A stretch of 64,000 nt of DNA from positions 62,001-126,000 of the forward strand of contig NW_027478965.1 of the NCBI RefSeq assembly GCF_051014685.1, given 5' to 3'. Under the pieces are notes generated by a model. It was not told where the DNA came from. It saw only the letters and a program-made list of their open reading frames with translations, and did no database searches. Each line of letters begins with the position of its first letter. Within the stretch, counting starts at the first letter, position 1. The position numbers were made by a program, and so were the translations under genes. This document shows positions 12,344 through 37,540 of the stretch, piece by piece. This DNA comes from Ptiloglossa arizonensis (Eukaryota; Arthropoda; Insecta; Hymenoptera; Colletidae).

Positions 12344-12344
12344 A

Positions 12345-15300: not shown

Positions 15301-18300
15301 CTTCAAACTCCCATATCTCGCGAACCGACCGACGAACTCGAGAAATTCCTGTTGAATCTGAAAGCAGAAACTCGCCCGATTACAACGGTATGTGTATTTT
15401 TGCCCTAGACCATAGTTGTTATTGGTTTCGAGTATCAGATTCCGAAAATTTCGATGGTTTCTCAACCATTCCTTAATTTCAAACTCGCATATCTCGCGAA
15501 CGGATTGTCGAACTCGAGAAATTCCTGTCGCATCTGAAAGCAGAAGCTCGCCCGATTACAACGGTGTGTGTATTTTTCCCCTTGGCCATTGCAGTTAATG
15601 GTTTCGAGTATCAGACTTGGGAAAATTTTGACGGCTTCTCAACCATTCCTTAACTTCAAACTCCCATATCTCGTGAGCGGATTGAGGAAATCAAGAAATT
15701 CCTGTTGCATCTGAAAGTAGAAACTCGCCCCATTACAAAGGTATGTGTACTTTTCCCCTAGGCCATTCCAGTTATTGGTTTCGAGTATCAGATTTGCGAA
15801 AATTTTGATGGTTTGTCAACCATTCTTTAACTTCATACTCCCATATCTCGCGAACGGATTGACGAACTCGAGAAACTCCTGTTGCATTTGAAAGTAGAAA
15901 CTCTCCCGATTACAATGGAGTGTGTACTTTTCCCTTAGGCCATTGTAGTTATTGGTTTCGTGTATCAGACTTGCGAAATTTTTGATTGTTTCTCAACCAT
16001 TCCCTAACTTCAAACTCCCATATCTCGCGAACGGATTGACGAACTCGAGAAATTCATGTTGCATCTGAAGGCAGAAACTCGCCCGATTACAATGGTGTGT
16101 GTACTTTTCCCCTAGGCCATTCCAGTTATTGGTTTCGAGTATCAGACTTGCGAAAATTTTAATGGAATCTCAACCATTCCTTAAATTCAAACTCCCATAT
16201 CTCGCGAACCGATTGACGAACTCGAGAAATTCCTGTTGCATCTGAAAGTAGCAACTCGCCCGATTACAATGGTGTGTGTACTTTTCCCCTAGGCCGTTCC
16301 AGGTAATGGTTCCGAGTATCAGACTTGCGAAAATTTTGATAGTTTCTCAACCATTCCTTAATTTCAAACTCGCATATCTCGCGAACGGATTGACGAACTC
16401 GTGAAATTGCTGTTCCATCTGAAAGCAGAAACTCGCCCGATTACAACGGTATGTGTATTTTTGCCCAAGGCCATAGTAGTTACTGATTTCTAGTATCAGA
16501 CTCTCGAAAATTTTTATGGTTTCTCAATCATTCCTTAACTTCAAATTCCCATATCTCGCGAACGGATTGAGGAAATCCAGAAATTCCTGTTGCATCTGAA
16601 AGCAGAAACTCGCCCGAATACAACGGTATGTATATTTTTCCCCTAGGCCATAGTAGTTATTGGTTTCGAGTATCAGACTTGCGAAAATTTTGATGGTTTC
16701 TCAACCATTCCTTAACTTCAAACTCCCATATCTCCCGAACGGATTGACGAACTCGTGAAATTGCTGTTGCATCTGAAAGCAGAAACTCGCCCGATTACAA
16801 CGGTATGTGTATTTTTGCCCAAGGCCATAGTAGTTACTGATTTCTAGTATCAGACTCGCGAAAATTTTTATGGTTTCTCAACCATTCCTTAACTTCAAAT
16901 TCCCATATCTCGCGAACGGATTGAGGAAATCGAGAAATTCCTGTTGCATCTGAAAGCAGAAACTCGCCCGAATACAACGGTATGTGTATTTTTGCCCTAG
17001 ACCGTAGTAGATAATAGTTTCGAGTATCAGATTCCGAAAATTTTGATGGTTTCTCAACCATTCCTTAACTTCAAGCTCCCATATCTCGCGAACGGATTGA
17101 CGAACTCGAGAAATTCCTGTTGTATCTGAAAGTAGAAACTTGCCCGATTACAATGGTGTGTGTACTTTTCCCCTAGTCCATTCCAGTCATTGGTTTCGAG
17201 TATCAGACATGCGAAAATTTTGACGGTTTCTCAACCATTCCTTAACTTCAAACTCCCATATCTCGCGAACCGATTGACGAACTCGAGAAATTCCTGTTGA
17301 ATCTGAAAGCAGATACTCGCCCGATTACAACGGTATGTGTATTTTTGCCCTAGACCACAGTAGTTATTGTTTTCGAGAATCAGACTTGCGAAAATTTTGA
17401 TGGTTTCTCAACCATTCCTTAACTTCAAGCTCCCATATCTCCCGAACGGATTGACGAACACGAGAAATTCCTGTTGCATCTGATTGCAGTAACTCGCCCG
17501 AATACAACGGTATGTGTATTTTTGCCCTACGCCATAGTAGTTATTGGTTTCGAGTATCAGACTTGCGAAAATTTTGATCGTTTCTCAACCATTCCTTAAC
17601 TTCAAACTCCCATATCTCGCGAACGGATTGACGAACTCGAGAAATTCCTGTTGCATCTGAAAGTAGAAACTCGCCCGATTACAATGGTGTGTCTATTTTT
17701 GCCCTAGGCCATAGTAGTTATTGGTTTCGAGTATCAGACTTGCGAAAATTTTGATGGTTTCTCAACCATCTCTTAATTCCAAACTCCGATATTTCGCGAA
17801 CGGATTGACGAATCCGAAAAATTTCTGTTGCATCTGAAAGTAGAAACTCTCCCGATTACAACGGTATGTGTATTTTTGCTCTAGACCATAATAGTTATTG
17901 GTTTCGAGTATCAGACTTGCGAAAATTTTGATGGTTTCTCAACCATTCCTTAACTTCAAACTCCCATATCTCGCGAACCGATTGACGAACTCGAGAAATT
18001 CCTGTTGAATCTGAAAGCAGAAACTCGCCCGATTACAACGGTATGTGTATTTTTGCCCTAGGCCAAAGTAGTTAATGGTTTCGAGTATCAGACTTGGGAA
18101 AATTTTGACGGCTTCTCAACCATTCCTTAACTTCAAACTCCCATATCTCGTGAGCGGATTGAGGAAATCAAGAAATTCCTGTTGCATCTGAAAGTAGCAA
18201 CTCGCCCGATTACAACGGTATGTGTATTTTTGCTCTAGACCATAGTAGTTATTGGTTTCGAGTATCAGATTTGCGAAAATTTTGATTGTTTCTCAATAAT

Positions 18301-20500
18301 TGCTTAACTTCAAACTCCCATATCTCGCGAACGGATTGACGAACTCGAGAAATTTCTGTTGCATCTGAAAGCAGAAACTCGCCCGATTACAACGGTATGT
18401 GTATTTTTGCCCTAGGCCATAGTAGTTAATGGTTTCGAGTATCAGACATGCGAAAATTTTGATGGTTTCTCAACCATTCCTTAACTTCAAACCCCCATAT
18501 ATCGTGAACGGATTGAGGAAATCGAGAAACTGCTGTTGCATCTGAAAGTAGAAACTCGCCCGATTACAATGGAGTGTGTACTTTTCCCTTAGGCCATAGT
18601 AGTTATTGGTTTCGAGTATCAGATTCCGAAAATTTTGATGGTTTCTCAACCATTCGTTAACTTCAAACCCCCATATCTCTCGAACGGATTGACGAACCGA
18701 AGAAATTCCTGTTGCAACTGAAAGTAGAAACTCGCCCCATTACAACGGTATGTGTACTTTTCCCCTAGGCCATTCCAGTAATTGGTTTCGAGTATCAGAT
18801 TTGCGAAAATTTTGATGGTTTCTCAATCATTCCTTAACTTCAAACTCCCATATCTCGTGAACGGATTGAGGAAATCGAGAAATTCCTGTTGCATCTGAAA
18901 GTAGAAACTCGCCCCATTACAACGGTACGTGTACCTTTCCCCTAGGCCATTCCAGTAATTGGTTTCGAGTATCAGACCAGAGAAAATTTTGATGGTTTCT
19001 CAACCATTCCTTGACTTCAAACTCCCATATCTCGCAAACCGATTGACGAGCTCGAGAAATTCCTATTGCATCTGAAAGTAGAAACTCGCCCGATTACAAT
19101 GGTGTGTGTGCTTTTCCCCTAGGCAATTCCAGTTATTGGTTTCGAGAATCAGACTTGCGAAAATTTTGATGGTTTCTCAACCATTCCTTAACTTCAAACC
19201 CCCATATCTCGCGAACGGATTGACGAGCTCGAGAAATTCCTGTTGCAGCTGAAAGTAGAATCTCGCCCGTTTACAATGGTGTGTGTACTTTTCCCCTAGG
19301 CCATTCCAGTCATAGGTTTCGAATATCAGACTTGCGAAAATTTTGATCGTTTCTCAACCATTCCTTAACTTCAAACTCCAATATCTCGCGAACGGATTGA
19401 GGATCTCGAGAAATTTCTGTTGCATCTGAAAGTAGAAACTCGCCCGAATACAGTGGTGTGTGTACTTTTCCCCTAGGCTATTCCAGTTATTGGTTTCGAG
19501 TATCAGACTTGCGAAAATTTTGATGGTTTCTCAACCATTCCTTAATTTCAAACTCCCATATCTCGCGAACGGATTGAGGATCTCGAGAAATTTCTGGTGC
19601 ATCTGAAAGTAGAAACTCGCCCGAATACAATGGTGTGTGTACTTTTCCCCTAGGCCATTCCAGTTATTGGTTTCGAGTATCAGACCAGAGAAAATTTTGA
19701 TGGTTTCTCAACCATTCCTTGACTTCAAACTCCCATATCTCGCAAACCGATTGACGAGCTCGAGAAATTCCTGTTTCATCTGATAGCAGAACCTCGCCCG
19801 ATTACAACGGTATGTGTATTTTTGCCCTGGGCCATAGTAGTTATTGGTTTCGAGTATCAGACTCGCGAACATTTTGATGTTTTCTCAACTATTCCTTAAC
19901 TTCAATCTCCCATATCTCGCGAACGGATTGACGAGCTCGAGAAATTCCTGTTGCATCTGAAAGTAGAAACTCGCCCGTTTACAATGGTGTGTGTACTTTT
20001 CCCCTAGGCTATTCCAGTTATTGGTTTCGAGTATCAGACTTGCGAAAATTTTGATGGTTTCTCAACCATTCCTTAATTTCAAACTCCCATAACTCGCGAA
20101 CGGATTGAGGATCTCGAGAAATTTCTGTTGCATCTGAAAGTAGAAACTCGCCCGAATACAATGGTGTGTGTGCTTTTCCCCTAGGCTATTCCAGTTATTG
20201 TTTTCGAGTATCAGACTTGCGAAAATTTTGATGGTTTCTCAAGCATTCCGTATTTTCAAACTCCCATATCTCGCGAACGGATTGACGAACTCGAGAAGTT
20301 CCTATTGCATCAGAAAGCAGAAACTCGCCCGAATACAACGGTATGTGTATTTTGCCCCTAGGACTTTGTAGTTATTGATTTGGAGTATCAGACGGCGAAA
20401 ATTTTGGCGGTTGCTCAAACATTCCTTAACTTCAAACTCCCATATCTCCCGAACGGATTGACGAATCCGAAAAATATCTGCTGCATCTGAAAGCAGAGAC
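12345..20500 (+). repeat. Zone 2: diverged satellite with weak higher-order structure
   Basis: Monomers here differ more from one another and carry many private variants ('ctgattgcag', 'tctcccgaac', 'gaggaaatc', 'ccagagaaaa'). Local duplications are visible: adjacent monomers near 13563 and 13741 (178 bp apart), and a block around 14640-15190 resembling one at 17100-17660 (the marker 'atctgattgc' at 15002 and 17478, offset 2,476 bp, 14 monomers). I see no regular long period and nothing other than satellite. Confidence 0.75.
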
Positions 20501-22739
20501 TCGCCCGATTACAACGGTATGTGTATTTTTGCCCTACGCCATAGAAGTTATTGGTCTCGAGTACCAGACTTGCGAAAATTTTGGTGGTTTCTCAACCATT
20601 CCTTAACTTCAAACTCGCATATCTCGCGAACAGATTGACGATCTCGAGAAATTTCTGTTGCATCTGAAAGTAGAAACTCGCCCGATTACAATGGTGTGGC
20701 TACTTTTTCCCCTAGGCCATTCCAGTTATTCGTTTCTAGCATCAGAATTGCGAAAATTTTGCTCAACCATTCCTTAACTTCAAACTCCCATATCTTGCGA
20801 ACGGATTGACGAACTCGAGAAATTCCTGTTGCGTCTGAAAGCAGAAACTCGCCCGATTACAATGGTGTGTGTACTTTTCCCCTAGGCCATTGCAGTTATT
20901 GGTTTCGAGTATCAGACCAGAGAAAATTTTGATGCTATCTCAACCATTCCTTGACTTCAAACTCCCATATCTCGCGAACCGATTGACGAGCTCGAGAAAT
21001 TCCTGTTGCATCTGAAAGCAGAACCTCGCCCGATTACAATGGTATGTGTATTATTGCCCTAGGCCATAGTAGTTATTGGTTTCGAGTATCAGACTTGCGA
21101 AAATTTTGATGGTTTCTCAACCATTCCTTAACTTCAAACTCCCATATCTCGCGAACGGAATGACGAACTCGAAAAATTCCTGTTGCATCTGAAAGTAGAA
21201 ACTCGCCCGATTACAATGGTGTGTGTACTTTTCCCCTAGGCCATTCCAGTTATTGGTTTCGAGTATCAGACTTGCGAGAATTTTCATGGTTTCTCAACCA
21301 TTTCCTTAACTTCAAACTCCCATACCTCGCGAACGGATTGACGAACTCGGGTAATTCCTGTTGCATCTGAAAGCAGAAACACGCCCGATTACAACGGTAT
21401 GTGAATGTTCCCCTAGGCCATTGTAGTTATTGGTTTCGAGTATCAGACTTGCGAAAATTTTCATGGTTTCTCAACCATTTCTTAACTTCAAACTCCCATA
21501 TCTCGCGAACGGAAAGACGAACTCGAGAAATTCCTGTTGCATCTGAAAGTAGAAGCTCGCCCGATTACAATGGTGTGTGTACTTTTCCCTAGGCCATTCC
21601 AGTTCTTGGTTTCGAGTATCAGACTTGCGAAAATTTTCATGGTTTCTCAACCATTCCTTATCTTCGAACGCCCATATCTCGCGAACGGATTGACGAACTC
21701 GAGAAATTCCTGTTGAATCTGAAAGCAGATACTCGCCCATTACGACGGTATGAGTATTTTTCCCCTAGGCCATTTTAGTTATTGGTTTCGAGTATCAGAC
21801 TTGCGAAAATTTTGATGGTTTCTCAACCATTCTTTAATTTCAAACTCCCATATCTCGCGGACGGATTGACGAACTCGAGAAATTCCTGTTGCATATGAAA
21901 GCAGATACTCGCCCGATTACAACGGTATGTGTATTTTTCACGTAGGCCATTGTAGTTATTTGTTTCGAGTATCAGACTTGCGAAAATTTTGATGGTTTCT
22001 CAACCATTCCTTAACTTCAAACTCCCGTATCTCGCGGACGGATTGACGAACTCGAGAAAGTCCTGCTGCATCTGAAAGCAGAAACCCGCCCGATTACAGC
22101 GGTATGTGAATTTTTCCCCTAGGCCATTCCAGTTATTGGTTTCGAGTATCAGACTTGCGAAAATTTTGGTTGTTTCTCAACCATTCCTTATCTTCAAACC
22201 CCATATCTCGCGAACGGATTGACGAACTCGAGAAAGTCCTGCTGCATCTGAAAGCAGAAACACGCCCGATTACAATGGTGTGTGTACTTTTCACTAGGCC
22301 ATTCCAGTTATTGGTTTCGAGTATCAGACTTGCGAAAATTTTGATTGTTTCTCAACCATTCCTTATCTTCAAACCCCCATATCTCGCGAACGGATTGACG
22401 AACTCGAGAAGGCCCTGCTGCGTCTGAAAACAGAAACCCGCCCGATTACATCGGTGTGTGTATTTTTGCCCTAGGCCATAGCAGTTATTGGTCTCGAGTA
22501 TCAGACTTGCGAAAATTTTGATGGTTTCTCAACCATTCCTTAACTTCAAACTCCCATATCTCGCGAACGGATTGACGAACTCGAGAAATTCCTGTTGCGT
22601 CTGAAAGTGGAAACTCGCCCGATTACAAAGGTATGTGTACTTTTCCCCTAGGCCATTCCAGTTATTGGTTTCGAGTATCAGACCAGCGAAAATTTTGATG
22701 ATTTCGCAACCATTCTTTAACTTCAAACTCCCATATCTC

Positions 22740-25700
22740 GCGAACGGAATGACGAACTCGAAAAATTCCTGTTGCATCTGAAAGTAGAAACTCGCCGGAT
22801 TACAATGGTGTGTGTACTTTTCCCCTAGGCCATTCCAGTTATTGGTTTCGAGTATCAGACTTGCGAGTATTTTCATGGTTTCTCAACCATTTCCTTAACT
22901 TCAAACTCCCATACCTCGCGAACGGATTGACGAACTCCGGTAATTCCTGTTGCATCTGAAAGCAGAAACTCGCCCGATTACAACGGTATGTGAATGTTCC
23001 CCTAGGCCATTGTAGTTATTGGTTTCGAGTATCAGAATTGCGAAAATTTTAATGGTTTCTCAACCATTTCTTAACTTCAAACGCCCATATCTCGCGAACG
23101 GAATGACGAACTCGAGAAATTCCTGTTGCATCTGAAAGTAGAAGCTCGCCCGATTACAATGGTGTGTGTACTTTTCCCTAGGCCATTCCAGTTCTTGGTT
23201 TCGAGTATCAGACTTGCGAAAATTTTCATGGTTTCTCAACCATTCCTTATCTTCGAACGCCCATATCTCGCGAACGGATTGACGAACTCGAGAAATTCCT
23301 GTTGAATCTGAAAGCAGATACTCGCCCATTACGACGGTATGAGTATTTTTCCCCTAGGCCATTTTAGTTATTGGTTTCGAGTATCAGACTTGCGAAAATT
23401 TTGATGGTTTCTCAACCATTCTCTAATTTCAAACTCCCATATCTCGCGGACGGATTGACGAACTCGAGAAATTCCTGTTGCATATGAAAGCAGATACTCG
23501 CCCGATTACAAAGGTATGTGTATTTTTCACGTAGGCCATTGTAGTTATTGGTTTCGAGTATCAGACTTGCGAAAATTTTCATGGTTTCTCAACCATTCCT
23601 TATCTTCAAACCCCATATCTCGCGAACGGATTGACGAACTCGAGATATTCCTGTTGTATCTGAAAGTAGAAACTCGCCCGAATACAATGGTGTGTGTACT
23701 TTTCCCCTAGGCCATTCCAGTTAGTGGTATCGAGTATCAGACTTGCGAAAATTTTCATGGTTTCTCAACCATTTCTTAACTTCAAACTCCCATATCTCGC
23801 GAACGGAATGACGAACTCGAAAAAAACCTGTTGCATCTGAAAGTAGAAACTCGCCCGATTACAATGGTATGTGTACTTTTCCCCTAGGCCATTCCAGTTA
23901 TTGGTTTCGAGTATCAGACTTGCGAGAATTTTCATGGTTTCTCAACCATTTCCTTAATTTCAAACTCCCATACCTCGCGAACGGATTGACGAACTCCGGT
24001 AATTCCTGTTGCATCTGAAAGCAGAAACTCGCCCGATTACAACGGTATGTGAATGTTCCCCTGGGCCATTGTAGTTATTGGTTTCGAGTATCAGACTTGC
24101 GAAAATTTTCATGGTTTCTCAACCATTTCTTAACTTCAAACTCCCATATCTCGCGAACGGAATGTCGAACTCGAGAAATTCCTGTTGCATCTGAAAGTAG
24201 AAGCTCGCCCGATTACAATGGTGTGTGTACTTTTCCCTAGGCCATTCCAGTTCTTGGTTTCGAGTATCAGACTTGCGAAAATTTTCATGGTTTCTCAACC
24301 ATTCCTTATCTTCGAACGCCCATATCTCGCGAACGGATTGACGAACTCGAGAAATTCCTGTTGAATCTGAAAGCAGATACTCGCCCATTACGACGGTATG
24401 AGTATTTTTCCCCTAGGCCATTTTAGTTATTGGTTTCGAGTATCAGACTTGCGAAAATTTTGATGGTTTCTCAACCATTCTTTAATTTCAAACTCCCATA
24501 TCTCGCGGACGGATTGACGAACTCGAGAAATTCCTGTTGCATATGAAAGCAGATACTCGCCCGATTACAACGGTATGTGTATTTTTCACGTAGGCCATTG
24601 TAGTTATTGGTTTCGAGTATCAGACTTGCGAAAATTTTCATGGTTTCTCAACCATTCCTTATCTTCAAACCCCATATCTCGCGAACGGATTGACGAACTC
24701 GAGATATTCCTGTTGTATCTGAAAGTAGAAACTCGCCCGAATACAATGGTGTGTGTACTTTTCCCCTAGGCCATTCCGGTTAGTGGTATCGAGTATCAGA
24801 CTTGCGAAAATTTTCATGGTTTCTCAACCATTCCTTAACTTCAAACTCCCATATCTCGCGAACGGAATGACGAACTCGAAAAATTCCTGTTGCATCTGAA
24901 AGTAGAAACTCGCCCGATTACAATGGTGTGTGTACTTTTCCCCTAGGCCATTCCAGTTATTGGTTTCGAGTATCAGACTTGCGAGAATTTTCATGGTTTC
25001 TCAACCATTTTCTTAACTTCAAACTCCCATACCTCGCGAACGGATTGACGAACTCCGGTAATTCCTGTTGCATCTGAAAGCAGAAACTCGCCCGATTACA
25101 ACGGTATGTGAATGTTCCCCTAGGCCATTGTAGTTATTGGTTTCGAGTATCAGACTTGCGAAAATTTTCATGGTTTCTCAACCATTTCTTAACTTCAAAC
25201 TCCCATATCTCGCGAACGGAATGACGAACTAGAGAAATTCCTGTTGCATCTGAAAGTAGAAGCTCGCCCGATTACAATGGTGTGTGTACTTTTCCCTAGG
25301 CCATTCCAGTTCTTGGTTTCGAGTATCAGACTTGCGAAAATTTTCATGGTTTCTCAACCATTCCTTATCTTCGAACGCCCATATCTCGCGAACGGATAGA
25401 CGAACTCGAGAAATTCCTGTTGAATCTGAAAGCAGATACTCGCCCATTACGACGGTATGAGTATTTTTCCCCTAGGCCATTTTAGTTATTGGTTTCGAGT
25501 ATCAGACTTGCGAAAATTTTGATGGTTTCTCAACCATTCTTTAATTTCAAACTCCCATATCTCGCGGACGGATTGACGAACTCGAGAAATTCCTGTTGCA
25601 TATGAAAGCAGATACTCGCCCGATTACAACGGTATGTGTATTTTTCACGTAGGCCATTGTAGTTATTGGTTTCGAGTATCAGACTTGCGAAAATTTTCAT

Positions 25701-28700
25701 GGTTTCTCAACCATTCCTTATCTTCAAACCCCATATCTCGCGAACGGATTGACGAACTCGAGATATTCCTGTTGTATCTGAAAGTAGAAACTCGCCCGAA
25801 TACAATGGTGTGTGTACTTTTCCCCTAGGCCATTCCAGTTAGTGGTATCGAGTATCAGACTTGCGAAAATTTTCATGGTTTCTCAACCATTTCTTAACTT
25901 CAAACTCCCATATCTCGCGAACGGAATGACGAACTCGAAAAATTCCTGTTGCATCTGAAAGTAGAAACTCGCCCGATTACAATGGTATGTGTACTTTTCC
26001 CCTAGGCCATTCCAGTTATTGGTTTCGAGTATCAGACTTGCGAGAATTTTCATGGTTTCTCAACCATTTCCTTAACTTCAAACTCCCATACCTCGCGAAC
26101 GGATTGACGAACTCCGGTAATTCCTGTTGCATCTGAAAGCAGAAACTCGCCCGATTACAACGGTATGTGAATGTTCCCCTAGGCCATTGTAGTTATTGGT
26201 TTCGAGTATTAGACTTGCGAAAATTTTCATGGTTTCTCAACCATTTCTTAACTTCAAACTCCCATATCTCGCGAACGGAATGTCGAACTCGAGAAATTCC
26301 TGTTGCATCTGAAAGTAGAAGCTCGCCCGATTACAATGGTGTGTGTACTTTTCCCTAGGCCATTCCAGTTCTTGGTTTCGAGTATCAGACTTGCGAAAAT
26401 TTTCATGGTTTCTCAACCATTCCTTATCTTCGAACGCCCATATCTCGCGAACGGATTGACGAACTCGAGAAATTCCTGTTGAATCTGAAAGCAGATACTC
26501 GCCCATTACGACGGTATGAGTATTTTTCCCCTAGGCCATTTTAGTTATTGGTTTCGAGTATCAGACTTGCGAAAATTTTGATGGTTTCTCAACCATTCTT
26601 TAATTTCAAACTCCCATATCTCGCGGACGGATTGACGAACTCGAGAAATTCCTGTTGCATATGAAAGCAGATACTCGCCCGATTACAACGGTATGTGTAT
26701 TTTTCACGTAGGCCATTGTAGTTATTGGTTTCGAGTATCAGACTTGCGAAAATTTTCATGGTTTCTCAACCATTCCTTATCTTCAAACCCCATATCTCGC
26801 GAACGGATTGACGAACTCGAGATATTCCTGTTGTATCTGAAAGTAGAAACTCGCCCGAATACAATGGTGTGTGTACTTTTCCCCTAGGCCATTCCGGTTA
26901 GTGGTATCGAGTATCAGACTTGCGAAAATTTTCATGGTTTCTCAACCATTCCTTAACTTCAAACTCCCATATCTCGCGAACGGAATGACGAACTCGAAAA
27001 ATTCCTGTTGCATCTGAAAGTAGAAACTCGCCCGATTACAATGGTGTGTGTACTTTTCCCCTAGGCCATTCCAGTTATTGGTTTCGAGTATCAGACTTGC
27101 GAGAATTTTCATGGTTTCTCAACCATTTTCTTAACTTCAAACTCCCATACCTCGCGAACGGATTGACGAACTCCGGTAATTCCTGTTGCATCTGAAAGCA
27201 GAAACTCGCCCGATTACAACGGTATGTGAATGTTCCCCTAGGCCATTGTAGTTATTGGTTTCGAGTATCAGACTTGCGAAAATTTTCATGGTTTCTCAAC
27301 CATTTCTTAACTTCAAACTCCCATATCTCGCGAACGGAATGACGAACTAGAGAAATTCCTGTTGCATCTGAAAGTAGAAGCTCGCCCGATTACAATGGTG
27401 TGTGTACTTTTCCCTAGGCCATTCCAGTTCTTGGTTTCGAGTATCAGACTTGCGAAAATTTTCATGGTTTCTCAACCATTCCTTATCTTCGAACGCCCAT
27501 ATCTCGCGAACGGATAGACGAACTCGAGAAATTCCTGTTGAATCTGAAAGCAGATACTCGCCCATTACGACGGTATGAGTATTTTTCCCCTAGGCCATTT
27601 TAGTTATTGGTTTCGAGTATCAGACTTGCGAAAATTTTGATGGTTTCTCAACCATTCTTTAATTTCAAACTCCCATATCTCGCGGACGGATTGACGAACT
27701 CGAGAAATTCCTGTTGCATATGAAAGCAGATACTCGCCCGATTACAACGGTATGTGTATTTTTCACGTAGGCCATTGTAGTTATTGGTTTCGAGTATCAG
27801 ACTTGCGAAAATTTTCATGGTTTCTCAACCATTCCTTATCTTCAAACCCCATATCTCGCGAACGGATTGACGAACTCGAGATATTCCTGTTGTATCTGAA
27901 AGTAGAAACTCGCCCGAATACAATGGTGTGTGTACTTTTCCCCTAGGCCATTCCAGTTAGTGGTATCGAGTATCAGACTTGCGAAAATTTTCATGGTTTC
28001 TCAACCATTTCTTAACTTCAAACTCCCATATCTCGCGAACGGAATGACGAACTCGAAAAATTCCTGTTGCATCTGAAAGTAGAAACTCGCCCGATTACAA
28101 TGGTATGTGTACTTTTCCCCTAGGCCATTCCAGTTATTGGTTTCGAGTATCAGACTTGCGAGAATTTTCATGGTTTCTCAACCATTTCCTTAACTTCAAA
28201 CTCCCATACCTCGCGAACGGATTGACGAACTCCGGTAATTCCTGTTGCATCTGAAAGCAGAAACTCGCCCGATTACAACGGTATGTGAATGTTCCCCTAG
28301 GCCATTGTAGTTATTGGTTTCGAGTATTAGACTTGCGAAAATTTTCATGGTTTCTCAACCATTTCTTAACTTCAAACTCCCATATCTCGCGAACGGAATG
28401 TCGAACTCGAGAAATTCCTGTTGCATCTGAAAGTAGAAGCTCGCCCGATTACAATGGTGTGTGTACTTTTCCCTAGGCCATTCCAGTTCTTGGTTTCGAG
28501 TATCAGACTTGCGAAAATTTTCATGGTTTCTCAACCATTCCTTATCTTCGAACGCCCATATCTCGCGAACGGATTGACGAACTCGAGAAATTCCTGTTGA
28601 ATCTGAAAGCAGATACTCGCCCATTACGACGGTATGAGTATTTTTCCCCTAGGCCATTTTAGTTATTGGTTTCGAGTATCAGACTTGCGAAAATTTTGAT

Positions 28701-29775
28701 GGTTTCTCAACCATTCTTTAATTTCAAACTCCCATATCTCGCGGACGGATTGACGAACTCGAGAAATTCCTGTTGCATATGAAAGCAGATACTCGCCCGA
28801 TTACAACGGTATGTGTATTTTTCACGTAGGCCATTGTAGTTATTGGTTTCGAGTATCAGACTTGCGAAAATTTTCATGGTTTCTCAACCATTCCTTATCT
28901 TCAAACCCCATATCTCGCGAACGGATTGACGAACTCGAGATATTCCTGTTGTATCTGAAAGTAGAAACTCGCCCGAATACAATGGTGTGTGTACTTTTCC
29001 CCTAGGCCATTCCAGTTAGTGGTATCGAGTATCAGACTTGCGAAAATTTTCATGGTTTCTCAACCATTCCTTAACTTCAAACTCCCATATCTCGCGAACG
29101 GAATGACGAACTCGAAAAATTCCTGTTGCATCTGAAAGTAGAAACTCGCCCGATTACAATGGTGTGTGTACTTTTCCCCTAGGCCATTCCAGTTATTGGT
29201 TTCGAGTATCAGACTTGCGAGAATTTTCATGGTTTCTCAACCATTTCCTTAACTTCAAACTCCCATACCTCGCGAACGGATTGACGAACTCCGGTAATAC
29301 CTGTTGCATCTGAAAGCAGAAACTCGCCCGATTACAACGGTATGTGAATGTTCCCCTAGGCCATTGTAGTTATTGGTTTCGAGTATCAGACTTGCGAAAA
29401 TTTTCATGGTTTCTCAACCATTTCTTAACTTCAAACTCCCATATCTCGCGAACGGAATGACGAACTAGAGAAATTCCTGTTGCATCTGAAAGTAGAAGCT
29501 CGCCCGATTACAATGGTTTGTGTACTTTTCCCTAGGCCATTCCAGTTCTTGGTTTCGAGTATCAGACTTGCGAAAATTTTCATGGTTTCTCAACCATTCC
29601 TTATCTTCGAACGCCCATATCTCGCGAACGGATTGACGAACTCGAGAAATTCCTGTTGAATCTGAAAGCAGATACTCGCCCATTACGACGGTATGAGTAT
29701 TTTTCCCCTAGGCCATTTTAGTTATTGGTTTCGAGTATCAGACTTGCGAAAATTTTGATGGTTTCTCAACCATTC
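22740..29775 (+). repeat. Homogeneous 1,059-bp (6-mer) / 2,118-bp (12-mer) higher-order repeat
   Basis: The marker 'cacgtagg' lies at 23528, 24587, 25646, 26705, 27764 and 28823, exactly 1,059 bp apart each time. Two subtypes alternate. One carries 'gaatgtcgaactcg' (near 24162, 26280, 28398); the other carries 'gaatgacgaactagag' (near 25220, 27338, 29456). 'ccggttagtgg' and 'ccagttagtgg' also alternate over part of the run. The real homogenised period is therefore 2,118 bp. The run breaks near 29775, where the sequence jumps to a different monomer phase. Confidence 0.92.
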
Positions 29776-32050
29776 CTTAACTTCAAACTCCCATATCTCG
29801 CGAACGGAATGACGAACACGAAAAATTCCTGTTGCATCTGAAAGTAGAAACTCGCCCGATTACAATGGTGTGTGTACTTTTCCCCTAGGCCATTCCAGTT
29901 ATTGGTTTCGAGTATCAGACTTGCGAGAATTTTCATGGTTTCTCAACCATTTCCTTAACTTCAAACTCCCATACCTCGCGAACGGATTGACGAACTCGGG
30001 TAATTCCTGTTGCATCTGAAAGCAGAAACACGCCCGATTACAACGGTATGTGAATGTTCCCCTAGGCCATTGTAGTTATTGGTTTCGAGTATCAGACTTG
30101 CGAAAATTTTCATGGTTTCTCAACCATTTCTTAACTTCAAACTCCCATATCTCGCGAACGGAAAGACGAACTCGAGAAATTCCTGTTGCATCTGAAAGTA
30201 GAAGCTCGCCCGATTACAATGGTGTGTGTACTTTTCCCTAGGCCATTCCAGTTCTTGGTTTCGAGTATCAGACTTGCGAAAATTTTCATGGTTTCTCAAC
30301 CATTCCTTATCTTCGAACGCCCATATCTCGCGAACGGATTGACGAACTCGAGAAATTCCAGTTGAATCTGAAAGCAGATACTCGCCCATTACGACGGTAT
30401 GAGTATTTTTCCCCTAGGCCATTTTAGTTATTGGTTTCGAGTATCAGACTTGCGAAAATTTTGATGGTTTCTCAACCATTCTTTAATTTCAAACTCCCAT
30501 ATCTCGCGGACGGATTGACGAACTCGAGAAATTCCTGTTGCATATGAAAGCAGATACTCGCCCGATTACAACGGTATGTGTATTTTTCACGTAGGCCATT
30601 GTAGTTATTTGTTTCGAGTATCAGACTTGCGAAAATTTTGATGGTTTCTCAACCATTCCTTAACTTCAAACTCCCGTATCTCGCGGACGGATTGACGAAC
30701 TCGAGAAAGTCCTGCTGCATCTGAAAGCAGAAACCCGCCCGATTACAGCGGTATGTGAATTTTTCCCCTAGGCCATTCCAGTTATTGGTTTCGAGTATCA
30801 GACTTGCGAAAATTTTGGTTGTTTCTCAACCATTCCTTATCTTCAAACCCCATAGCTCGCGAACGGATTGACGAACTCGAGAAAGTCCTGCTGCATCTGA
30901 AAGCAGAAACACGCCCGATTACAATGGTGTGTGTACTTTTCACTAGGCCATTCCAGTTATTGGTTTCGAGTATCAGACTTGCGAAAATTTTGATTGTTTC
31001 TCAACCATTCCTTATCTTCAAACCCCCATATCTCGCGTACGGATTGACGAACTCGAGAAGGTCCTGCTGCGTCTGAAAACAGAAACCCGCCCGATTACAT
31101 CGGTGTGTGTATTTTTGCCCTAGGCCATAGCAGTTATTGGTCTCGAGTATCAGACTTGCGAAAATTTTGATGGTTTCTCAACCATTCCTTAACTTCAAAC
31201 TCCCATATCTCGCGAACGGATTGACGAACTCGAGAAATTCCTGTTGCGTCTGAAAGTGGAAACTCGCCCGATTACAAAGGTATGTGTACTTTTCCCCTAG
31301 GCCATTCCAGTTATTGGTTTCGAGTATCAGACCAGCGAAAATTTTGATGATTTCGCAACCATTCTTTAACTTCAAACTCCCATATCTCGCGAACGGATTG
31401 ACGAACTCGAGAAATTCCTGTTGCATCTGAAAGCAGAAACTCGCCCGATTACAACGGTATGTGAATTTTTGCCCTAGGCCATAGTAGTTATTGGTCTCGA
31501 GTATCAGACTTGCGAAAATTTTGATGGTTTCTCAACCATTCCTTAACTTCAAACTCCCATATCTCGCGGACGGATTGACGAACTCGAGAAATTCCTGTTG
31601 CATCTGAATGCAGAAACTCGCCCGATTACAACGGTATGTGAATTTTTGCCCTAGGCCATAGTTATTGGTCTCGAGTATCAGACTTGCGAAAATTTTGATG
31701 GTTTCTCAACCATTCCTTAATTTCAAACTCCCATATCTCGCGAACGGATTGACGAACTCGAGAAGTTCCTGTTGCATCTGAAAGTAGAAACTCGCCCGAT
31801 TACAATGGTGTGTGTATTTTTCCCCTAGGCCCTTCCAGTTATTGGTATCCAGTATCAGACTTGCGAAAATTTTCATGGTTTCTCAACCATTTCTTAACTT
31901 CAAACTACCATATCTCGCGAACGGAATCACGAACTCGAGAAATTCCTGTTGCATCTGAAAGTAGAAGCTCGCCCGATTACAATGGTGTGTGTACTTTTCC
32001 CTAGGCCATTCCAGTTATTGGTTTCGAGTATCAGACCAGCGAAGATGTTG

Positions 32051-32056
32051 ATGGTT
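32051..32056. other. Paralogous empty insertion site
   Basis: The six bases ATGGTT here, with their flanks, are the unoccupied counterpart of the element's target. The left flank matches the copy 3,700 bp downstream (31810 vs 35510; 'gaagatgttg' 32041 vs 35741). The right flank matches the copy 5,484 bp downstream (32413 vs 37897). The difference, 1,784 bp, equals the 1,778-bp element plus a 6-bp duplicated target. Confidence 0.9.
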
Positions 32057-35000
32057 TCTCAACCATTTCTTAACTTCAAACTCCCATATCTCGCGAACGG
32101 AATGACGAACTCGAAAAATTCCTGTTGCATCTGAAAGTAGAAACTCGCCCGATTACAATGGTGTGTGTACTTTTCCCCTAGGCCATTCCAGTTATTGGTT
32201 TCGAGTATCAGACTTGCGAGAATTTTCATGGTTTCTCAACCATTTCCTTAACTTCAAACTCCCATACCTCGCGAACGGATTGACGAACTCCGGTAATTCC
32301 TGTTGCATCTGAAAGCAGAAACTCGCCCGATTACAACGGTATGTGAATGTTCCCCTAGGCCATTGTAGTTATTGGTTTCGAGTATCCGAATTGCGAAAAT
32401 TTTATTGGTTTCTCAACCATTTCTTAACTTCAAACTCCCATATCTCGCGAACGGAATGACGAACTCGAGAAATTCCTGTTGCATCTGAAAGTAGAAGCTC
32501 GCCCGATTACAATGGTGTGTGTACTTTTCCCTAGGCCATTCCAGTTCTTGGTTTCGAGTATCAGACTTGCGAAAATTTTCATGGTTTCTCAACCATTCCT
32601 TATCTTCGAACGCCCATATCTCGCGAACGGATTGACGAACTCGAGAAATTCCTGTTGAATCTGAAAGCAGATACTCGCCCATTACGACGGTATGAGTATT
32701 TTTCCCCTAGGCCATTTTAGTTATTGGTTTCGAGTATCAGACTTGCGAAAATTTTGATGGTTTCTCAACCATTCTCTAATTTCAAACTCCCATATCTCGC
32801 GGACGGATTGACGAACTCGAGAAATTCCTGTTGCATATGAAAGCAGAAACTCGCCCGATTACAACGGTATGTGTATTTTTGCCCTACGCCATAGAAGTTA
32901 TTGGTCTCGAGTACCAGACTTGCGAAAATTTTGGTGGTTTCTCAACCATTCCTTAACTTCAAACTCGCATATCTCGCGAACAGATTGACGATCTCGAGAA
33001 ATTTCTGTTGCATCTGAAAGTAGAAACTCGCCCGATTACAATGGTGTGGGTACTTTTTCCCCTAGGCCATTCCAGTTATTCGTTTCTAGCATCAGAATTG
33101 CGAAAATTTTGCTCAAACATTCCTTAACTTCAAACTCCCATATCTTGCGAACGGATTGACGAACTCGAGAAATTCCTGTTGCGTCTGAAAGCAGAAACTC
33201 GCCCGATTACAACGGTATGTGTATTTTTGCCCTAGGCCATAGTAGCTATTGGTTTCGAGTATCAGACTCGCGAACATTTTGATGTTTTCTCAACTATTCC
33301 TTAACTTCAATCTCCCATATCTCGCGAACGGATTGACGAACTCGAGAAATTCCTGTTGCATCTGAAAGCAGAAACCCGCCCGATTACAGTGGTGTGTGTA
33401 CTTTTCCCCTAGGCCATTCCAGTATATTCGTTTCTAGCATCAGAATTGCGAAAATTTTGTGGTTTCCCAACCATTCGTTAACTTCAAACTCCCATATCTC
33501 GCGAACGGATTGACGAACTCGAGAAATTCCTGTTGCGTCTGAAAGTGGAAACTCGCCCGATTACAATGGTCTTCGTACTTTTCCCCTAGCCATTCCAGTT
33601 ATTGGTTTCGAGTATCAGACTTGCGAAAATTTTGATGGTTTCTAAGCCATTCCTTAACTTCAAACTCACATATCTAGGGAACGGATTGACGAACTCGAGA
33701 ATTTCCTATTGCATCTGAAAGCAGAAACTCGCCCGATTACAATGGTGTGTGTACTTTTCCCCTAGGCCATTCCAGTTATTGGTTTCGAGTATCAGACCAG
33801 AGAAAATTTTGATGCTATCTCAACCATTCCTTGACTTCAAACTCCCATATCTCGCGAACCGATTGACGAGCTCGAGAAATTCCTGTTGCATCTGAAAGCA
33901 GAACCTCGCCCGATTACAATGGTATGTGTATTATTGCCCTAGGCCATAGTAGTTATTGGTTTCGAGTATCAGACTTGCGAAAATTTTGATGGTTTCTCAA
34001 CCATTCCTTAACTTCAAACTCCCATATCTCGCGAACGGAATGACGAACTCGAAAAATTCCTGTTGCATCTGAAAGTAGAAACTCGCCCGATTACAATGGT
34101 GTGTGTACTTTTCCCCTAGGCCATTCCAGTTATTGGTTTCGAGTATCAGACTTGCGAGAATTTTCATGGTTTCTCAACCATTTCCTTAACTTCAAACTCC
34201 CATACCTCGCGAACGGATTGACGAACTCGGGTAATTCCTGTTGCATCTGAAAGCAGAAACACGCCCGATTACAACGGTATGTGAATGTTCCCCTAGGCCA
34301 TTGTAGTTATTGGTTTCGAGTATCAGACTTGCGAAAATTTTCATGGTTTCTCAACCATTTCTTAACTTCAAACTCCCATATCTCGCGAACGGAAAGACGA
34401 ACTCGAGAAATTCCTGTTGCATCTGAAAGTAGAAGCTCGCCCGATTACAATGGTGTGTGTACTTTTCCCTAGGCCATTCCAGTTCTTGGTTTCGAGTATC
34501 AGACTTGCGAAAATTTTCATGGTTTCTCAACCATTCCTTATCTTCGAACGCCCATATCTCGCGAACGGATTGACGAACTCGAGAAATTCCTGTTGAATCT
34601 GAAAGCAGATACTCGCCTATTACGACGGTATGAGTATTTTTCCCCTAGGCCATTTTAGTTATTGGTTTCGAGTATCAGACTTGCGAAAATTTTGATGGTT
34701 TCTCAACCATTCTTTAATTTCAAACTCCCATATCTCGCGGACGGATTGACGAACTCGAGAAATTCCTGTTGCATATGAAAGCAGATACTCGCCCGATTAC
34801 AACGGTATGTGTATTTTTCACGTAGGCCATTGTAGTTATTTGTTTCGAGTATCAGACTTGCGAAAATTTTGATGGTTTCTCAACCATTCCTTAACTTCAA
34901 ACTCCCGTATCTCGCGGACGGATTGACGAACTCGAGAAAGTCCTGCTGCATCTGAAAGCAGAAACCCGCCCGATTACAGCGGTATGTGAATTTTTCCCCT

Positions 35001-35750
35001 AGGCCATTCCAGTTATTGGTTTCGAGTATCAGACTTGCGAAAATTTTGGTTGTTTCTCAACCATTCCTTATCTTCAAACCCCATATCTCGCGAACGGATT
35101 GACGAACTCGAGAAAGTCCTGCTGCATCTGAAAGCAGAAACACGCCCGATTACAATGGTGTGTGTACTTTTCACTAGGCCATAGTAGTTATTGGTCTCGA
35201 GTATCAGACTTGCGAAAATTTTGATGGTTTCTCAACCATTCCTTAACTTCAAACTCCCATATCTCGCGGACGGATTGACGAACTCGAGAAATTCCCGTTG
35301 CATCTGAATGCAGAAACTCGCCCGATTACAACGGTATGTGAATTTTTGCCCTAGGCCATAGTTATTGGTCTCGAGTATCAGACTTGCGAAAATTTTGATG
35401 GTTTCTCAACCATTCTTTAATTTCAAACTCCCATATCTCGCGAACGGATTGACGAACTCGAGAAATTCCTGTTGCATCTGAAAGTAGAAACTCGCCCGAT
35501 TACAATGGTGTGTGTATTTTTCCCCTAGGCCCTTCCAGTTATTGGTATCCAGTATCAGACTTGCGAAAATTTTCATGGTTTCTCAACCATTTCTTAACTT
35601 CAAACTACCATATCTCGCGAACGGAATCACGAACTCGAGAAATTCCTGTTGCATCTGAAAGTAGAAGCTCGCCCGATTACAATGGTGTGTGTACTTTTCC
35701 CTAGGCCATTCCAGTTATTGGTTTCGAGTATCAGACCAGCGAAGATGTTG

Positions 35751-35756
35751 ATGGTT
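35751..35756. repeat. Target-site duplication, left copy (ATGGTT)
   Basis: Direct repeat of ATGGTT flanking the element, matched at 37535-37540. A six-base duplication goes with element ends TG...CA on the minus strand. Because the element's end and the target share A residues, 4- to 7-base duplications are formally possible. Confidence 0.85.
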
Positions 35757-35820
35757 TGGCGGCGCTAATAGGATGTTTAAAGTAGGAGAGAACGGAAATA
35801 GGAAAAGGAGGTGGGGATAA

Positions 35821-35888
35821 GCGTTTCATCCCGGGCCTGCTAGTGGACTCGTCAGTAAGGCATCCTAGCAGGCCCTGCCTTATACGCC
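35821..35888 (-). ncRNA. Type III hammerhead ribozyme, copy 1
   Basis: Read on the minus strand, all three stems and the core are present. Stem III is GGCGU paired with ACGC. It is followed by A as the cleavage-site base, so the cut falls between 35883 and 35882. Stem I is UAAGGCA/UGCCUUA (7 bp, perfect), then the core CUGACGA, stem II GUCC/GGAU, and the core GAAA running into ACGC. Stems I and II are closed by 13-nt loops and stem III is open, which makes it type III. The loops contain GGGCCUGCUAG and CUAGCAGGCCC, perfectly complementary over 11 nt. Two departures from the commonest form are G-U instead of G-C at the base of stem II, and A rather than C at the cleavage site. Self-cleavage has not been tested. 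Confidence 0.9.
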
Positions 35889-35916
35889 GGGACATTGGAA
35901 GATCGGTAAGAGGTCG

Positions 35917-35924
35917 TATATATA
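35917..35924 (-). promoter_or_regulatory. Putative TATA box of LTR 1
   Basis: TATATATA on both strands, inside the LTR, with its downstream edge 28 bp from the ribozyme's 5' end (36 nt measured from the start of the box). This spacing would start a Pol II transcript at or near the first base of the hammerhead. Function is inferred from position. Confidence 0.6.
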
Positions 35925-36012
35925 GCGATCGGAGCAGGTACGGGAACTTGCGGGAAACGGTTGGTGGTGAGTTTCCCTCTGGTGGCAAGCGTGGGTAAGT
36001 GCCGCCACATAA

Positions 36013-36019
36013 CCCCCTT
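36013..36019 (-). other. Polypurine tract before LTR 1
   Basis: AAGGGGG on the minus strand, three bases (TTA) before the LTR start TGTGG. It has the position and composition expected of a plus-strand primer in LTR retroelements, though it is short. Confidence 0.65.
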
Positions 36020-36509
36020 GCCAGTGGTAAACGATACTTTGAAGTTCCGTCCTGATGTCCCAGTGGCGTAGGTATTTGTTCCGTTGTTCGGTGGCACAAC
36101 AAGGCACAGGAGGAGGTTGTCTAGAGTAGTGGACGAGAGGAATGGTTCTTTTTCGTAGTAAGGCCCAGCTGCTGTCGATTACGAACTACGCATGGCGAGC
36201 CTTGTATGCTCAAGCCGCGATTTTTGCTTGTTGTCCGACGTTGATGCGTGAGCGTACCGGTACTTATGAAACGCATCCGTGTGGTCGGTGAATAATGTCG
36301 ACTAAAGCTGCCTGCTGTCCTCCTGGGGTTGATCCTGATGGTTAGCCGGAAGTATAGCGTCATATCGTCGCTGGCAGGTAAAGGAGTCAACCCTCGGAGA
36401 GGGGGATTTACGAAAAATCGGCCTTTACACGTTGCGTTCCATCCATCGTCTTGTGCTGCACCTCTACTGCTGCTGTGCTGTTGTCCAGAAGGTTGCGTTG
36501 GTTCTTAGA

Positions 36510-36520
36510 CGGGGTCACCA
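36510..36520 (-). other. Primer-binding site, copy 1 (tRNA-Trp type)
   Basis: TGGTGACCCCG on the minus strand, three bases after the end of LTR 2. It is complementary to the last 11 bases, CCA included, of an animal-type tRNA-Trp (ending CGGGGTCA-CCA, from memory). The match does not extend further. The position directly after an LTR supports a role in priming reverse transcription. Confidence 0.75.
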
Positions 36521-36586
36521 CTTTGGCGGCGGTTTAAAGATGCTTAAGGTAGGAGAGAACGGAAATAGGAAAAGGAGTGGGGATAA

Positions 36587-36654
36587 GCGTTTCATCCCGG
36601 GCCTGCTAGTGGACTCGTCAGTAAGGCATCCTAGCAGGCCCTGCCTTATACGCC
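36587..36654 (-). ncRNA. Type III hammerhead ribozyme, copy 2
   Basis: Identical to copy 1 over all 68 bases, including the core, the three stems and the complementary loops. The predicted cut lies between 36649 and 36648. Cleavage here and at copy 1 would release a 766-nt RNA with 5'-hydroxyl and 2',3'-cyclic phosphate ends, the substrate form for RNA circularisation. Confidence 0.9.
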
Positions 36655-36682
36655 GGGACATTGGAAGATCGGTAAGAGGTCG

Positions 36683-36690
36683 TATATATA
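36683..36690 (-). promoter_or_regulatory. Putative TATA box of LTR 2
   Basis: TATATATA at the same spacing upstream of the hammerhead as in the other LTRs. The neighbouring base on its upstream side (minus strand) is changed relative to LTRs 1 and 3. Confidence 0.55.
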
Positions 36691-36777
36691 CCGATCGGAG
36701 CAGGTACGGGAACTTGCGGGAAACGGTTGGTGGTGAGTTTCCCTCTGGTGGCAAGCGTGGGTAGTGCCGCCACATAA

Positions 36778-36784
36778 CCCCCTT
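36778..36784 (-). other. Polypurine tract before LTR 2
   Basis: AAGGGGG on the minus strand, then TTA and the LTR start, exactly as at LTR 1. Confidence 0.6.
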
Positions 36785-37268
36785 GCCAGTGGTAAACGAT
36801 ACTTTGAAGTTCCGTCCTGATGTCCCAGTGGCGTAGGTATTTGTTCCGTTGGTCGGTGGCACAACAGGCACAGGAGGAGGTTGTCCAGAGCGGTGGAAGA
36901 GAAGAATGCTTCTTTTTCGTAGTAAGGCCCAGCTGCTGTCGATTGCGGAATACGCGTGGCGAGCATCGTTTGCTCAAGCCGCGTTTTCGCTTGTTGTCCG
37001 ACGTTGATGCGTGCGCGTACCAGTATTTATGAAACGCATCGGTGTGGTCGGTGAATAATTTCGACAAGCTGCCTGCTGTCCTCCTGGGGTTGATCCTGAT
37101 GGTTAGCCGGGAGTATAGCGTTCGTGTCGTCGCTGGCAGGTCGAGGAGTCAACCCTCGGAGAGGGGGATTTACGAAAAATCGGCCTTTACGTTGCGTTCC
37201 TTCCATCGTCTTGTGCTGCACCTGTACTGCTGCTGTGCTGTTGTCCAGAAGGTTGCGTTGTTCTTAGA

Positions 37269-37279
37269 CGGGGTCACCA
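37269..37279 (-). other. Primer-binding site, copy 2 (tRNA-Trp type)
   Basis: TGGTGACCCCG on the minus strand, three bases (AAG) after the end of the 5' LTR. It is unchanged from copy 1 although flanking internal sequence has diverged, which is consistent with constraint. Confidence 0.75.
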
Positions 37280-37345
37280 CTTTGGCGGCGCTAAATTGAA
37301 GTATGTGAGGAAGGGGCGAACGGAAATATAAGGAAGTGGGGATAA

Positions 37346-37413
37346 GCGTTTCATCCCGGGCCTGCTAGTGGACTCGTCAGTAAGGCATCCTAGCAGGCCC
37401 TGCCTTATACGCC
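37346..37413 (-). ncRNA. Type III hammerhead ribozyme, copy 3
   Basis: Identical to copies 1 and 2 over 68 bases. The predicted cut is between 37408 and 37407. Cleavage here and at copy 2 would release a 759-nt RNA. As the 5'-most copy, it lies near the presumed start of the full-length transcript. Confidence 0.9.
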
Positions 37414-37441
37414 GGGACATTGGAAGATCGGTAAGAGGTCG

Positions 37442-37449
37442 TATATATA
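37442..37449 (-). promoter_or_regulatory. Putative TATA box of LTR 3
   Basis: TATATATA in the 5' LTR, same spacing to the hammerhead as in LTR 1. If the element is transcribed from its own promoter, this is the copy that would drive the complete dimer. Confidence 0.6.
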
Positions 37450-37534
37450 GCGATCGGAGCAGGTACGGGAACTTGCGGGAAACGGTTGGTGGTGAGTTTC
37501 CCTCTGGTGGCAAGCGTGGGTAAGTGCCGCCACA

Positions 37535-37540
37535 ATGGTT
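37535..37540. repeat. Target-site duplication, right copy (ATGGTT)
   Basis: Right-hand partner of 35751-35756. The satellite continues from here in the phase expected from the empty paralogue at 32051. Confidence 0.85.

Follow-up and report, generated by a model that had tools for sequence, protein, structure and literature searches.

A putative family of long terminal repeat retrozymes in a bee genome and its probable Ty3/gypsy machinery

Plant long terminal repeat (LTR) retrozymes carry type III hammerheads in their LTRs, are flanked by 4-bp duplications and have gypsy elements as their likely partner (PMC4918200). Papers of 2024 and 2025 (the latter PMC12029980) described the retrozymes of animals as non-LTR elements bearing type I hammerheads and assigned LTR retrozymes to plants. 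These and all other published systems are cited here from the available portions of the papers. We analyzed an element on the minus strand of "the window", a 64,000-nt stretch of Ptiloglossa arizonensis DNA (contig NW_027478965.1, positions 62,001 to 126,000), in which a sequence-only reading had proposed a plant-style LTR retrozyme, possibly in an animal. The host COX1 was nearest to that of Colletes gigas (84%), followed by Andrena (81-82%) and Hylaeus (79-80%), which identified the host as a bee, and the anatomy, the 4-bp duplication and the ~760-nt spacing fitted the proposal. We consider it very probable (roughly 85%) that the element belongs to a recently mobile LTR retrozyme family with a gypsy-dependent cycle passing through hammerhead-cut RNA. 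The anatomy, the family, the duplications, the match to tRNA-Trp, the chimeras with gypsy and the continuity across the predicted cleavage site in these chimeras are shown by the sequences. The finding of such a family in an animal stands and is firmer than first proposed: composite insertions reveal its probable machinery, and ribozyme activity and a circular form are predicted.

Architecture of the element and its hammerhead motif

The insertion of the element splits a 177-bp satellite array that fills the rest of the window. Its parts, including the primer-binding sites (PBS) and polypurine tracts (PPT), were as follows.

35755..37534, minus strand: whole element, LTR-internal-LTR-internal-LTR, 1780 bp, 53% GC
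35751..35754, no strand: left target-site duplication ATGG, from comparison with other copies
37535..37538, no strand: right target-site duplication ATGG; the joined flanks give the satellite in register
37281..37534, minus strand: LTR 1 (5' in sense), TGTGGCGGC...CCGCCAAA, 254 bp
36522..36774, minus strand: LTR 2, 253 bp
35755..36009, minus strand: LTR 3 (3' in sense), 255 bp
37343..37415, minus strand: type III hammerhead of LTR 1, predicted cleavage 37408/37407; RF00008 at 22.8 bits, E 0.074, below gathering; found by descriptor
36584..36656, minus strand: type III hammerhead of LTR 2, predicted cleavage 36649/36648; RF00008 below gathering; found by descriptor
35818..35890, minus strand: type III hammerhead of LTR 3, predicted cleavage 35883/35882; RF00008 below gathering; found by descriptor
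37442..37449, minus strand: TATATATA of LTR 1, putative promoter, first T 42 nt upstream of the cleavage site
36683..36690, minus strand: TATATATA of LTR 2, from the spacing comparison across copies
35917..35924, minus strand: TATATATA of LTR 3, from the spacing comparison across copies
37269..37279, minus strand: PBS TGGTGACCCCG, complement of the host tRNA-Trp 3' end plus CCA
36510..36520, minus strand: second PBS, from the same tRNA-Trp comparison
36775..36784, minus strand: PPT AAGGGGGTTA preceding LTR 2, from the ACTGGCAAGGGGGTTA count in copies
36010..36019, minus strand: PPT preceding LTR 3, from the ACTGGCAAGGGGGTTA count in copies
36775..37280, minus strand: internal part 1, 506 bp
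36010..36521, minus strand: internal part 2, 512 bp
1..35750, resuming at 37539-64000, no strand: 177-bp satellite array (a 354-bp period was also reported)

In the sense direction, each LTR ran TGTGGCGGC - TATATATA - hammerhead - U5 - CCGCCAAA, followed by a G and the PBS TGGTGACCCCG, and both internal parts terminated in AAGGGGGTTA; "U3" and "U5" are used here for the LTR portions before and after the hammerhead. Three LTRs were present, as the sequence-only reading had stated, but the nearly right TG...CA ends and the start at 35757 given there were corrected to TGT...CCAAA and 35755, because in other copies CCAAA comes directly before the 4-bp duplication. The two PBS, the two PPT, the ATGG duplication on both sides and a minus-strand hammerhead in every LTR were all located as proposed, the last by a strict descriptor. 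The cleavage site predicted at 35883/35882 was also recovered, and the units of 760 nt became units of 759 and 766 nt between predicted cleavage sites, with a GC content of 52.6% and 54.0%. The proposed lack of coding capacity held at the Pfam level, where none of the six open reading frames (ORFs) of the element, including one of 149 amino acids, had a match above the cut-off.

A frame of 106 amino acids at 36646-36966 (-) was likewise without a Pfam match. The longest ATG frame was 106 amino acids in 30 of 41 units, equal in length to the window frame, and this recurrence may be mere resemblance among young copies. A small protein is also mentioned in a plant retrozyme paper.

The putative hammerhead reads CCGGCGUA / UAAGGC (loop AGGGCCUGCUAGGAU) GCCUUA / CUGACGA / GUCC (loop ACUAGCAGGCCCG) GGAU / GAA / ACGC. 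In this reading, stems I, II and III all close and stem III is the open stem, and the same core was present in each of the three LTRs. The strict descriptor (UH, stem I of 5 bp, CUGANGA, stem II of 4 bp, GAA, stem III of 4 bp, wobbles permitted) was composed after the motif was already known; it gave three matches in the window, every one inside an LTR. In first-order Markov simulations of ~15 Mb, made up of 60 windows and 2000 elements, it had no match. Loops I and II contained 11 complementary nucleotides that could form Watson-Crick pairs.

Copies, mosaic LTRs and composite insertions

In the assembly searched (998.67 Mb, 2016 contigs), the exact 24-mer of the LTR start occurred at 609 places and its reversed control at none. 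The first 100 places listed comprised 34 pairs 759-775 bases apart and 32 single starts, with the pairs undercounted because only exact matches were taken. The best 40 of 924 first-look candidates were scored in a search with the window element, and 28 copies (L009-L036) and 30 overlapping loci (L043-L072) were read. After removal of identical elements, 32 distinct copies with at least two LTRs remained, nine of them with three, a share inflated because the query had three LTRs. Further copies with target duplications, as looked for after the sequence-only reading, were thus plentiful: 31 of the 32 had a duplication, of 4 bp in 28 and of 5 bp in three (L026, L036, L069), and the remaining one (L060) met a contig end; in some copies the duplication can be written longer because the preceding base is A. 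Ten of the copies lay in the 177-bp satellite and seven in a TACGTTA-type array. ACTGGCAAGGGGGTTA was present in 42 of 42 G-rich stretches preceding an exact LTR start, and the first T of TATATATA lay 42 nt upstream of the predicted cleavage site at 72 of the 73 hammerheads found by GGCGTATAAG. The length between cleavage sites was 757-769 nt across 41 units, and the two-LTR copies matched over ~1.0 kb. The exact hammerhead 15-mer was found at eight places in viral contigs, within our estimate of chance expectation; the satellite 19-mer was found at none in viral contigs, a distant-mode search of phages and plasmids gave no match, and a 28-mer was absent from the genome-contig collection.

The COX1 search scored 88 matches from 631 first-look candidates, on C969, C8, C139 and many other contigs, C4 and C6 included. 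Contig C969, the source of the COX1 compared with other bees above (insect mitochondrial code), held five identical-scoring copies spaced 22-27 kb apart. So many matches imply a large load of nuclear mitochondrial DNA.

A canonical hammerhead pattern matched at three places in the genome (control, 0), one of which (L115) was a decayed retrozyme LTR. The other two, L116 (C5:23136213) and L117 (C10:6809137), had hammerhead-like cores CUGAUGAGUCC...GGACGAAAC with an ill-defined stem I. GCCTTA precedes these cores, as it does in the element, but the element's LTR does not surround them, and GCCTTACTGATGAGTCCA was common to both and nearly to the element as well. L116 scored 21.9 bits with RF00163, below its threshold of 34. 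These two loci could be sister families or relics.

The hammerhead was the least variable part of the LTR. Across 71 distinct LTR contexts from 58 loci, with the LTR boundaries taken from the terminal sequences and the orientation from the PBS, it had one variant over 68 nt, compared with 10 variants of U3 and 45 of U5, and the mean differences per column were 0, 0.009 and 0.15, respectively. When loci found by the PBS pattern were included, the hammerhead was unchanged in 71 of 78 contexts and altered in seven, including L075, both L077 LTRs and L082/L083; the search pattern permits five substitutions, and hammerheads decayed further escape it. A freshly inserted LTR element is expected to have identical LTRs. 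In 50 within-copy LTR pairs, U3 had 22 substitutions in 6002 columns, and U5 had 177 substitutions and 170 gap columns in 3357; zero differences were found in the hammerhead, partly by construction, as the parse required 39 exact hammerhead letters. Among 23 two-LTR copies, U3 was identical in 21 and U5 in 13, differing in the other 10. The U5 difference is not solely decay after insertion, because U5 forms recur between copies, and where U3 is identical a template jump within the hammerhead would produce it. In the nine three-LTR copies, the internal parts were 2 to 27 substitutions apart (27 in L009 and L010). L012 was compatible with one circle read twice and L010 was not, so several RNAs take part.

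With CCA added, a host tRNA-Trp gene (C4:4777367-4777438, anticodon CCA, ARAGORN) was complementary to the window PBS over its first 11 nt. In L075, L082/L083 and the gypsy element L073 this initial complement was 18 nt long, and in L082/L083 it took in 39 of the first 41 nt. Past its 11-nt PBS, the window element agreed with tRNA-Trp only in a later 13-nt block. This block, ACGCAACCTTCTG at 36486-36498 (-), looks as if it were the decayed remnant of an older, longer copied primer.

L083 (C14:2736001) and L082 (C14:2602679) were 99% identical over 875 nt, and in both the retrozyme LTR was followed by the 39/41-nt tRNA-Trp complement and a ~0.6-kb internal part unlike that of other loci. In L083, the internal part ended in an LTR tail, and an AAAG duplication surrounded LTR-int-LTR-X. 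The pair resembles a second rider that uses the same LTR.

A 16-nt tRNA-Trp PBS was found at 41 places in the genome (control, 0), 20 of which were read, and several preceded a Gag frame. The Gag of L076 matched DUF7041 (PF23055, E 3.5e-24) and had a CHCC motif by reading; it had 312 relatives, and among the 120 listed all named organisms were insects, with bees at the top. The published marks of CsRn1-like elements are a tRNA-Trp PBS, a 4-bp duplication and a CHCC Gag (PMC2582038, PMC3630058), although one CsRn1-like element has a 6-bp duplication instead. All three marks were found in the partner, which is likely a CsRn1-type Ty3/gypsy element as judged from the PBS, the duplication and the Gag.

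A query joining the hammerhead LTR to gag had 1200 candidates, and scoring of the best 40 gave 11 gag-bearing places. Two had a hammerhead LTR (L077 and a composite on C86), seven matched from the PBS onward only, and two (C55, C1018) began at a contig end. CTGANGA was absent from the 700 nt upstream of the PBS at six gypsy-type loci (L073, L074, L076, L079-L081). L077 consisted of a hammerhead LTR with a mutated core (CUGAAGAG), a PBS, 1.07 kb of gag (95% to L073) and then a reversed hammerhead LTR, and it provided a second hammerhead-LTR/gag junction at the PBS.

The composite at C86:575757-581531 spanned 5.8 kb. On its left, satellite was followed by CTTC, an LTR, the retrozyme PBS, the internal part, the PPT and an LTR; on its right came a gypsy-type PBS (one mismatch to TGGTGACCCCGACGTG), an intact gag ORF, a protease motif, pol-like stretches, a gypsy LTR, CTTC and satellite. 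The internal part was read at both ends and the middle of the composite sampled in 40-nt pieces, in which RNase H-like and integrase-like stretches were judged by eye. The 3' LTR was an ordinary gypsy LTR, at 97.5% to the LTRs of L073 or L076 in three samples. Because one CTTC duplication surrounds the whole, the composite is one insertion. Its two retrozyme LTRs were identical over the first 227 nt and differed in the last stretch before the PBS, and the U5 variant of both was in no other locus compared. In the simplest reading, minus-strand synthesis would have begun on gypsy RNA, switched near the shared PBS onto retrozyme RNA, and then run through the hammerhead site, one full unit and the hammerhead a second time. 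A single cut linear unit is unfit as a template for this; a circle or an uncut multimer could have served. The composite is strong sequence evidence that retrozyme RNA was copied by gypsy machinery, which crossed the hammerhead cleavage site in doing so, and from it and L077 we infer that the retrozyme is mobilised by Ty3/gypsy.

Proposed cycle and its alternatives

In the proposed cycle, the LTR promoter TATATATA would start transcription ~12 nt ahead of the cleavage site, where the first strand of stem III lies, a placement that rests on the usual promoter-to-start spacing. Each LTR hammerhead would cut the transcript into uncapped, untailed units of ~760 nt, to be circularised by a host ligase. 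Reverse transcriptase and integrase would come in trans from a CsRn1-type Ty3/gypsy element. tRNA-Trp would prime at the PBS, and the reverse transcriptase, with a circle or an uncut multimer as template, would read U5, hammerhead, U3 and onward and change templates among the packaged RNAs of retrozyme and gypsy, until integrase inserted the product with a 4-bp duplication. Promoter use, self-cleavage, ligation, the circular template and packaging are predictions of this scheme. More tentatively, and with somewhat less than an even chance of being right, LTR retrozymes may have had an independent animal origin, the bee hammerhead with its 11-nt loop-loop contact lying in the R region of a CsRn1-dependent terminal-repeat retrotransposon in miniature (TRIM). 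The same arms may act as an on/off switch, the loop contact being active in nascent RNA and a nested hairpin inactive in the closed circle; the gypsy enzyme would make more than one round of the circle, with jumps to other circles and to its own RNA, and leave multi-LTR and composite insertions.

A number of observations weigh against the proposed cycle. The covariance-model match sought after the sequence-only reading was obtained in part: Rfam Hammerhead_3 (RF00008) gave three matches of 22.8 bits (E 0.074), all below its gathering score of 48.5, at which the window had no Rfam match. Across the whole genome RF00008 gave no match, but the controls were equally silent and the search was uninformative. 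The isolated 79-nt RNA was predicted to fold into a competing nested hairpin built from the 11-nt arms, at -30.9 kcal/mol; the three stems, with the loop contact left out, came to -10.3 kcal/mol. Pair 10.1-11.1 was a G-U wobble where G-C is usual in hammerheads, and the cleavage triplet GUA also departs from expectation. No compensatory changes or covariation were found in the copies read, in which the hammerhead was nearly invariant, and these copies lean young because they were chosen as the best window matches. The flanks of L077, GGTT and GGTG, form an imperfect duplication. In L010, the first two U5 were the same, yet the internal parts differed by 27 substitutions. The C86 template could also have been an uncut transcript of a three-LTR locus.

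One circle copied repeatedly was considered as the source of every three-LTR copy and was rejected by L010. A covariance model, R1, had no match in 13 loci. The two 11-nt arms as a free duplex gave -22.3 kcal/mol, which is not a kissing energy, and the 766-nt unit was predicted to be strongly self-paired (-230.4 kcal/mol, z -4.3 with 20 shuffles), which counts in favor of the proposed cycle. Its predicted fold placed the hammerhead in the blocked hairpin.

The alternative that survives best, though we think it rather unlikely, is that the hammerhead cuts and uncut multimers, such as transcripts of three-LTR loci, are what is reverse transcribed, with circles as by-products. Three-LTR copies do exist and their units differ, and a U5 that differs in 10 of 23 two-LTR copies requires more than one template. 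The joint U5 variant of the C86 LTRs, in no other compared locus, fits instead a circle read slightly more than once, and a tandem locus of a single variant would fit it as well.

It is improbable that the element is an ordinary TRIM whose LTR hairpin is merely hammerhead-like and whose cycle proceeds without self-cleavage. The Rfam score below gathering, the stable nested hairpin of the 11-nt arms and the lack of covariation agree with such an element. They are opposed by core letters that stand in order with three stems, a motif found in none of the 2060 simulated sequences, by the low variability of the hammerhead relative to the rest of the LTR and by the fixed 42-nt spacing of TATATATA at 72 of 73 hammerheads.

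Slightly less probable again is an origin by deletion from an autonomous gypsy element with a hammerhead in its own LTRs. The two hammerhead LTRs at gag-bearing places and the likeness of the LTR/PBS junctions would suit such a parent, whereas seven of the 11 places matched from the PBS onward only (two more beginning at a contig end), no CTGANGA preceded the PBS at the six gypsy-type loci, and the 3' LTR of the C86 composite, whose middle was sampled only, belongs to gypsy itself. The view that the window element is not a fragment of a coding element was borne out, none being found among the best 40 of 1200 candidates. Horizontal transfer of a plant LTR retrozyme into the bee, suggested by the shared plan and unit size, is the least credible, given, by comparison with published descriptions of plant retrozymes, tRNA-Trp in place of tRNA-Met, 11-nt Watson-Crick loop I/II complementarity in place of non-Watson-Crick plant contacts, and a CsRn1-type partner.

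Comparison with known systems

Among the titles and the beginnings of abstracts listed from the open-licence literature other than preprints, no LTR retrozyme in an animal was reported. Weighing against priority, PMC7761336 refers to type III hammerhead elements of bacteria or insects as "in preparation", and fly ones are mentioned likewise in PMC7936874.

The closest relatives in plan are the plant LTR retrozymes (Cervera et al. 2016, PMC4918200). Both have type III hammerheads in LTRs, a PBS, a PPT, 4-bp duplications, no known protein, a likely gypsy partner, solo LTRs and a hammerhead blocked in the predicted fold of a self-paired unit, and ~700 nt between cleavage sites there compares with ~760 in the bee. 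The bee units (757-769 nt) fall within the 600-800 nt that delimits membership. The plant elements differ in their tRNA-Met PBS, LTRs of 300-400 bp (~254 bp in the bee), unit GC over 55% (53-54% in the bee) and loops with non-Watson-Crick contacts instead of 11 complementary nucleotides, and chimeras with the partner were seen in the bee, unlike in the available account of the plant retrozymes. In our view, the tRNA-Met PBS is a trait of the plant lineage, and what defines an LTR retrozyme is that an LTR element carries a hammerhead.

Metazoan non-LTR retrozymes (Cervera and de la Pena 2020, PMC7229834) are likewise non-coding animal hammerhead retroelements with head-to-tail units. They differ in their type I hammerheads, the lack of LTR, PBS and PPT, larger duplications and a size of ~170-400 nt. 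The pseudoknotted type III hammerheads of toad and termite hepatitis delta virus (HDV)-like RNAs and of termite and fly genomes (PMC7936874) share a Watson-Crick contact between loops 1 and 2 and include insects; they have a longer helix I, an extra hairpin and a contact of ~4 nt, and the termite ones are isolated motifs. The structural search described in the available part of that paper found no pseudoknotted type III hammerheads in hymenopterans.

PbTRIM of ants (PMC3532108) and Helenus (PMC10886601) are also short non-coding hymenopteran LTR elements with 4-bp duplications, and tRNA-Trp is used by some hymenopteran Helenus. The LTRs of PbTRIM measure 152-184 bp and its PBS matches tRNA-Leu, unlike in the bee element, and a hammerhead goes unmentioned for PbTRIM and Helenus in the available portions of both papers. 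By the definition of a TRIM (below 1000 bp, LTR of 100-350 bp), the LTR size and the lack of known genes of the bee element fit, the two-LTR copies of ~1.0 kb are slightly over, and the window copy has 1780 bp. Members of the CsRn1 clade (PMC2582038, PMC3630058) are autonomous, and the hammerhead core was absent from the six gypsy-type LTR ends compared in the bee.

The composites offer genomic evidence as to which machinery copies a retrozyme and for an enzyme crossing the hammerhead site, hitherto a model in the available literature. The bee could serve as an animal system for asking whether circular RNA truly templates LTR retrotransposition. Relative to the published systems as described above, a high-copy and recent LTR retrozyme in a bee breaks the division between non-LTR retrozymes in animals and LTR retrozymes in plants.

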